From Candidatus Omnitrophota bacterium (GTDB lineage: Bacteria; Omnitrophota; Gorgyraeia; Zapsychrales; Fredricksoniimonadaceae), in assembly GCA_002753745.1 (NCBI GenBank), contig PEAR01000003.1, forward strand, positions 1-46,911: DNA of 46,911 nucleotides, written 5' to 3'. The notes under the pieces are model-generated. The model had not been told where the DNA came from, made no database searches, and saw only the letters and a program-made list of their open reading frames with translations. Below, piece after piece: positions 33,045 through 33,299 of the stretch. Every line of letters starts with the position of its first letter. Position 1 is the stretch's first letter. The translations under genes were made by a program, and so were the position numbers.

Positions 33045-33265
33045 AATTTTCTCCTTTGTTTTTTAATCCTGCCCTGTTCTTAAACTTAATCGCTTTTACT
33101 GCCAACTGCCGGAAAAAAGAAAAAAGCGCCTTTAATTCATCAGCGATGATGATTTAAAGACGCCTTTGTCTTTTACTCCAATTTGTCTCAGGCTTCGTTG
33201 CCTGTTATTTGCTTGGGCCTTTTCGGCCCAATTCGCACCAATAGCTCTCAATGGTACGTTAGACA
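33045..33265 (-). ncRNA. amt leader RNA with predicted ANTAR antitermination switch
   Basis: This is most of the 312-bp gap between amt and the NSS gene. In the leftward transcript, in order, there is a hairpin TTGGGCC-GAAAA-GGCCCAA (33231-33213); P1, CAGGC-AACGAA-GCCTG (33204-33189); a 15-nt linker; P2, AAAGAC-AAAGGC-GTCTTT (33173-33156); then the terminator. Both P1 and P2 have six-base loops with A at position 1 and G at 4, the known signature of RNAs bound by ANTAR-domain antiterminators (as in NasR, AmiR and eut systems). P2 shares GTCTTT with the terminator's 5' arm, so the two folds exclude each other. No ANTAR gene is in this window. Confidence 0.75.
33120..33170 (-). terminator. Intrinsic terminator (attenuator) upstream of amt
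   Basis: Leftward: GCGTCTTTAA (33163-33154) pairs with TTAAAGGCGC (33135-33126) with one G-U, and an inner TCATCA/TGATGA stem (loop TCGC) continues it after an A-A mismatch, about 17 bp in total. TTTTTTCTTTTTT follows directly. It lies 75 bp before the amt start, so it must be bypassed for amt-glnB expression. Confidence 0.85.
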
Positions 33266-33271
33266 TTTGTA

Positions 33272-33299
33272 AGTATAAAACCTTTTGGTAAAATTTCAA
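33272..33299 (-). promoter_or_regulatory. Promoter for amt-glnB
   Basis: Leftward: TTGAAA (33299-33294), 16 bp, TATACT (33277-33272). A start near 33265 gives a leader of about 220 nt containing the whole predicted switch. No sigma-54 element (GG-N10-GC) was found in the region. Confidence 0.55.

Follow-up and report, generated by a model that had tools for sequence, protein, structure and literature searches.

A predicted ANTAR antitermination switch in the amt-glnB leader of a Candidatus Omnitrophota bacterium

The leader of the amt-glnB operon in the window (the whole 46,911-nucleotide stretch of Candidatus Omnitrophota DNA analyzed here) is very probably an ANTAR antitermination switch, a reading to which we assign a probability of roughly 0.9. 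RNA polymerase would start near position 33265 and, by default, the terminator (33166-33123) would fold and stop transcription near 33115, before amt is reached. An active GAF-GAF-ANTAR protein, most likely a dimer, would bind the hexaloops of two leader hairpins, P1 and P2, reading the G at loop position 4 (G4) of each. With P2 held folded, the terminator would lose its 5' arm and transcription would proceed into the amt and glnB genes. Nitrogen status, detected through the GAF domains, is the probable signal. Within this reading, protein binding, dimerization, activation as the direction of control and the ligand are inferred.

Results

Anatomy and folding of the leader

The features of the leader are listed in Table 1. 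The original prediction had described two hairpins with six-base loops (AACGAA and AAAGGC), both with A at position 1 and G at position 4 (A1/G4) and 15 nt apart, downstream of a good promoter and ahead of amt. Both hairpins were found at the place given, and the promoter (TTGAAA-16-TATACT) matched the consensus at 10 of 12 positions; its -10 region was kept as TATA-T across 12 aligned family leaders. Folding also bore out the claim that P2 shares GTCTTT with the 5' arm of a strong terminator followed by a T-run. The 5' arm is formed by the loop end and 3' arm of P2, so that P2 and the terminator are mutually exclusive folds, and the U-tract (33125-33113, minus strand) reads TTTTTTCTTTTTT.

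Table 1. Positions of the amt-glnB leader features in the window and of two further candidate leaders (locus given)
Feature	Position	Strand	Sequence or evidence
Sigma-70-like promoter	33272..33299	-	TTGAAA-16-TATACT; consensus scan, 10/12 matches
-35 box	33299-33294	-	TTGAAA; followed by 16-nt spacer
-10 box	33277-33272	-	TATACT
Hairpin A	33234..33258	-	stem CGTACCA/TGGTGCG; fold and alignment; sequence varies among relatives
Hairpin B	33213..33231	-	TTGGGCC-GAAAA-GGCCCAA; GNR(N)A-like pentaloop kept in family; three compensated base pairs
P1, candidate ANTAR hexaloop hairpin	33189..33204	-	CAGGC-AACGAA-GCCTG; loop 33199-33194; fold
P1-P2 linker	33174..33188	-	15 nt, unpaired
P2, candidate ANTAR hexaloop hairpin	33156..33173	-	AAAGAC-AAAGGC-GTCTTT; loop 33167-33162; excludes terminator
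Intrinsic terminator (attenuator)	33113..33166	-	stem 33166-33123; U-tract 33125-33113
amt, ammonium transporter, 408 aa	31818..33044	-	PF00909 E = 1e-132; TIGR00836 above cut-off
glnB-type P-II protein, 113 aa	31382..31723	-	PF00543 E = 1e-26; 94 nt 3' of amt
ANTAR gene-glutamine synthetase gap	L151 4480-4660	-	promoter, P2-type GGGC-ATTGAC-GTCC, terminator
Second amt-glnB operon (amt2) leader	L131 6893-6975 (G000 contig C17)		three successive A1/G4 hexaloops

The five amt proteins closest to that of the window in the genome collection were 67-76% identical to it; four came from records named Candidatus Omnitrophota or Omnitrophica and one from a record named 'bacterium'. A sodium-dependent neurotransmitter-type symporter (PF00209; 33357-34919, plus strand) is encoded divergently from amt, and the two genes have the intergenic region in common.

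The 162-nt leader folded at -68.9 kcal/mol (z = -8.8 against shuffles, with 0 of 200 as good), and the terminator hairpin alone at -22.2 kcal/mol. Across the stretch from P1 to the terminator, the terminator fold reached -26.9 kcal/mol compared with -18.3 kcal/mol when P2 was enforced (P1 and P2 together). This gap of 8.6 kcal/mol indicates a leader that is off by default and a P2 hairpin that needs stabilization from outside. A scan of both strands of the whole 46.9-kb window for two hairpins followed by a U-run returned this region alone.

Conservation of the leader in the family

We aligned 12 family leaders, the window's own included, over their whole length. Both hairpins, the overlap with the terminator and a G4 in every P1 and P2 loop were kept in 12/12 leaders. 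The expectation that relatives would conserve A1/G4 loops and the terminator overlap therefore held for G4 and for the overlap; A1 was not strict, with A or G, and once U, at this position. The family consensus of P1 was C[AG]GGC-NNNGNN-GYYYG (loop position 1: A in 6 rows, G in 5 and U in 1 of 12), with seven-base loops in G019 and G027, and that of P2 was AAGRC-RAWGRC-GYCUU (A in 9 and G in 3 of 12). A compensatory change from A-U to G-C was identified in P1 among the relatives.

Covariation was counted for the stems of hairpin B, P1 and P2 in the ten rows with six-base loops. This analysis revealed 97.8% paired cells, a percentage that leans towards structure because the hairpins were excised by pattern, and six pairs in which both partners had changed (17 cells); compensatory changes in variable columns are independent of the excision. 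The covariation score was 0.295 compared with 0.135 in shuffles, none of 500 of which reached it, and at most 0.083 when the partners were slid.

Hairpin B, absent from the original prediction, was placed a few nucleotides 5' of P1 in all 12 leaders, with the loop GAAHA or GAGCA in the relatives; this pentaloop resembles the GNR(N)A type of phage boxB RNA. Hairpin B does not behave as a dispersed element: in 30 family genomes it occurred about once or twice per genome, with its copies mainly at the amt1 leader.

Specificity of the loop signature

To gauge the signature we counted hexaloops of every letter pair at positions 1 and 4 in 51 amt leaders from relatives, in which leaders and genomes are related and the counts are therefore not independent events. 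A hexaloop over the 5' arm of the terminator carried A1/G4 in 40/51 leaders and G1/G4 in 8/51, with 0-3 for the other letter pairs. Hexaloop hairpins in total numbered 105 for A1/G4, 27 for G1/G4 and 4-16 for each of the others. A strict search, requiring the same letters in both hairpins together with a terminator, returned six of the 51 leaders for A1/G4 and none for the other 15 pairs. A loose scan of 1.09 Mb of the organism's own genome gave 34 A1/G4 matches compared with 21-49 for other pairs, a background that corresponds to a few chance matches per thousand leaders of 420 nt. Within the present set, Nitrospira, Selenomonas, Peptococcaceae and Desulfosporosinus likewise carried the signature ahead of amt. 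The original prediction took ANTAR control to be unexpected for amt in this type of organism; instead, with A1/G4 over the terminator in 40 of 51 leaders, it appears to be the rule in the order. ANTAR control of amt has moreover been reported in other bacteria (PMC3369931), so the surprise is smaller than the original prediction held.

These counts bear on the simplest alternative, a plain attenuator in which a constitutive terminator lowers amt expression and P1 and P2 are chance by-products of the sequence. The strong terminator includes P2 and could by itself explain the conservation of that hairpin, and loose matches of a hexaloop over a terminator are common genome-wide, as the 1.09-Mb scan showed for every letter pair. 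P1, however, lies outside the terminator and was nevertheless kept with compensatory change and an invariant G4, the enrichment was specific to the letters A1/G4, and the same architecture was found at amt2 and at glutamine synthetase. We consider a plain attenuator very unlikely.

A GAF-GAF-ANTAR protein in the genome

A search of the organism's own genome (2.54 Mb, 86% complete, 240 contigs) identified one PF03861 match (E = 3e-21), in a 413-aa protein in which two GAF domains precede an ANTAR domain at the C-terminus. The regulator that the original prediction called for is thus present; its placing of the gene 'elsewhere' is correct for this genome, whereas in 15 relatives an ANTAR gene lies directly upstream of amt. 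With this protein at hand and the leader architecture kept in relatives, the central claim that amt-glnB is switched by an ANTAR protein is supported at the level of sequence. The first GAF domain most resembled that of PtsP-type phosphotransferases, and the NifA model matched the second; in both cases the matches were partial and fell far below curated cut-offs. The PtsP-type and NifA families are linked to nitrogen signaling, and the likeness makes nitrogen sensing plausible.

The protein was aligned to EutV (6WSH/6WW6), allowing for a two-residue offset in chain numbering. Arg142, Lys143, Glu146, Lys149, Glu160, Tyr164 and Met172 of EutV were kept; Lys147 (R), Arg168 (H), Asn173 (D), Arg175 (C) and Arg177 (S) differed. 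In EutV, G4 is contacted by Arg142, Lys149, Glu160 and Tyr164, the last of which stacks on G4, and Met172 acts as a plug (PMC8934654). No direct contact to A1 was found in EutV (PMC8934654), which fits the drift of position 1 to G in relatives. The Tyr was kept in 17 of 18 extracted homologues. The differences at several residues that contact the RNA backbone in EutV (R168H, N173D, R175C, R177S) count against the ANTAR reading, as does the G or U found at P1 loop position 1 in half of the family rows.

ANTAR was detected in 48 of the 55 genomes of relatives, 46 of these 48 having one or at most two matches, and a wider sample of 98 genomes across the phylum gave 67 with ANTAR; most ANTAR open frames outside the order were about 230-280 aa in length, not 410-440. 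G040 (93% complete) had ANTAR-like hairpins 5' of amt, yet no ANTAR gene was detected in this genome, a further point against the ANTAR reading. A co-loss of ANTAR and hexaloop in G040 was considered and dropped, as the ANTAR-like hairpins sit further upstream of amt.

The same survey weighs on the possibility that the leader is the target of a second ANTAR protein, whose gene would fall in the part of the genome that the assembly lacks. The assembly is indeed incomplete and fragmented into 240 contigs, but the near-universal count of one or at most two matches per ANTAR-bearing genome and the linkage of a single ANTAR gene to amt in many relatives make a second protein highly improbable.

Linkage and candidate targets of the regulator

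In the 15 relatives with linkage (G007, G012, G013, G021, G022, G026, G030, G031, G032, G033, G039, G043, G045, G048 and G050), the ANTAR domain ended at most 1.5 kb upstream of amt on the same strand. A gene assigned to type III glutamine synthetase from its length and sequence motifs follows the ANTAR gene in the organism's own genome, and the gap between the two carries a candidate leader in which a P2-type hairpin overlies a terminator (Table 1). Its arrangement was kept in G001, G003 and G015, with the loops ACTGAT, ATTGAT and AATGAG. No standard P1 was found in the glutamine-synthetase leader, which makes it the weaker case.

The leader of amt2 carries TGCCGGAC-ATTGAC-GTTTGGCA, GGTAC-AATGAT-GTACC and then, 10 nt further on, GGGC-AACGTG-GCCC over the terminator. 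A covariance model (R1) built from amt2-type elements gave a convincing score in the own genome at amt2 only. As it recovered the window leader poorly (13.7 bits), the model is too narrow and says nothing on the size of the regulon. Beyond amt1, amt2 and glutamine synthetase, the loose 1.09-Mb scan left one candidate with a real-looking terminator (L170, about 7836, minus strand). Here a strong terminator overlain by an A1/G4 hexaloop separates a response-regulator gene from the gene of a Rex-like repressor, which hydrogenase-type genes follow; this may be the plain terminator of the response-regulator gene.

A metabolite- or tRNA-sensing leader (a riboswitch or T-box with hairpins A and B as the sensor and P1 and P2 as switching arms) would account for the conserved and covarying hairpins A and B, the latter of which ANTAR alone leaves without a reason, but is hardly credible given that no Rfam family, known riboswitch and T-box models included, matched the window at gathering score and that the amt2 and glutamine-synthetase leaders share the loop signature with no hairpin B seen in either. 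At E-values up to 10, Rfam matches in the leader region were confined to microRNA, sRNA and plasmid antisense models. The lack of an Rfam match also weighs against the ANTAR reading.

Linker length and a third hexaloop

The linker between P1 and P2 was 15 nt in the window and 10-15 nt across its genus. Linkers in other genera were 30-60 nt long and contained one to three hairpins, always with an unpaired remainder of 9-15 nt; once inserted hairpins were folded, each of the 12 family leaders had an unpaired linker of 9-15 nt. In all nine long-linker leaders, the hairpin inserted first resembled TAAAGT-AAAGAA-GCTTTA and had an R1/G4 hexaloop. Loops of these first hairpins were AAAGAA, AAGGAA, AAAGTA, GTAGAA, AGAGAA and AATGAA, with one row placed in a different register by RNAfold.

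In the eut leaders of E. faecalis the linker is 5-12 nt and induction was impaired at 14 nt (PMC3369931), and a 20-nt extension abolished antitermination by EutV in vitro (PMC8934654). This loss with linker extension leads one to expect a constant unpaired length if one dimer spans P1 and P2. Alternatively, the third hexaloop allows the working pair to be the middle hairpin and P2. The 15 nt of the window exceed the range of the E. faecalis leaders, which speaks against the ANTAR reading. In several genomes of the order (L097, L098, L099, L103 and L110), an extra A1/G4 or G1/G4 hexaloop hairpin stood between the terminator and amt. The large natural set of leaders, with A or G at position 1, two or three hexaloops and linkers lengthened by hairpins at a constant unpaired length, could be used to probe what an ANTAR dimer requires of its RNA.

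The classical nitrogen-regulatory route

No GlnD UTase domain was found in any of 55 genomes, and none of the genus's four genomes, two of which reach 92% completeness or more, gave a sigma-54 DNA-binding domain; in control genomes both searches detected their targets as expected. P-II proteins are nonetheless encoded in the organism's own genome. The lack of detectable GlnD, together with that of sigma-54 in the genus, makes the classical NtrC-sigma-54 route to amt-glnB unlikely in the genus; as sigma-54 was found in 22 of the 55 genomes, its absence does not extend to the whole order. These data suggest that ammonium uptake and glutamine synthesis are controlled at the termination of transcription and not at its initiation.

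Discussion

Beyond the leader in the window, a wider circuit can be proposed tentatively for the order, and we regard it as possible though rather doubtful as a whole. One GAF-GAF-ANTAR protein would be the main nitrogen switch in place of GlnD, NtrC and sigma-54, with two amt-glnB operons and glutamine synthetase as its targets. As a composite, the amt1 leader would combine serial hexaloops (a third in most genera, the unpaired linker constant) with a conserved GNR(N)A hairpin, possibly recognized by a second factor.

The dual-hexaloop ANTAR RNA was described by Ramesh and colleagues in 2012 (PMC3369931), who also located ANTAR RNAs upstream of genes for P-II proteins, ammonium transporters, glutamine and glutamate synthases and nitrogenase, for example in Desulfotomaculum. 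Among the papers searched, none dealt with ANTAR in Omnitrophota. The mechanism and the target genes are thus already known; what is added here is the phylum, a double-GAF regulator beside amt and glutamine synthetase, and the composite leader. For an uncultured and poorly studied phylum, this amounts to a concrete, testable nitrogen-control circuit.

Three known systems are the closest. The EutV/eut system of Enterococcus faecalis (PMC3369931, PMC8934654) likewise has two A1/G4 hexaloops, a P2 over the terminator and the residues that contact G4; EutV, in contrast, is a receiver-ANTAR two-component regulator acting on linkers of 5-12 nt, whereas here the regulator is a GAF-GAF-ANTAR protein with several backbone contacts changed and the linker is 15 nt. 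The Desulfotomaculum-type ANTAR RNAs (PMC3369931) share both target genes and RNA arrangement with the leader described here, which comes from another phylum, with the ANTAR gene often beside amt in the order and a third hexaloop in many leaders. NasR/nasF of Klebsiella (PMC3369931, PMC7496416) is alike in serving nitrogen genes, in its A1/G4 hexaloops and in joining a sensory domain to ANTAR, with no kinase passing on a phosphoryl group; in NasR a NIT domain detects nitrate, whereas the protein identified here carries two GAF domains.
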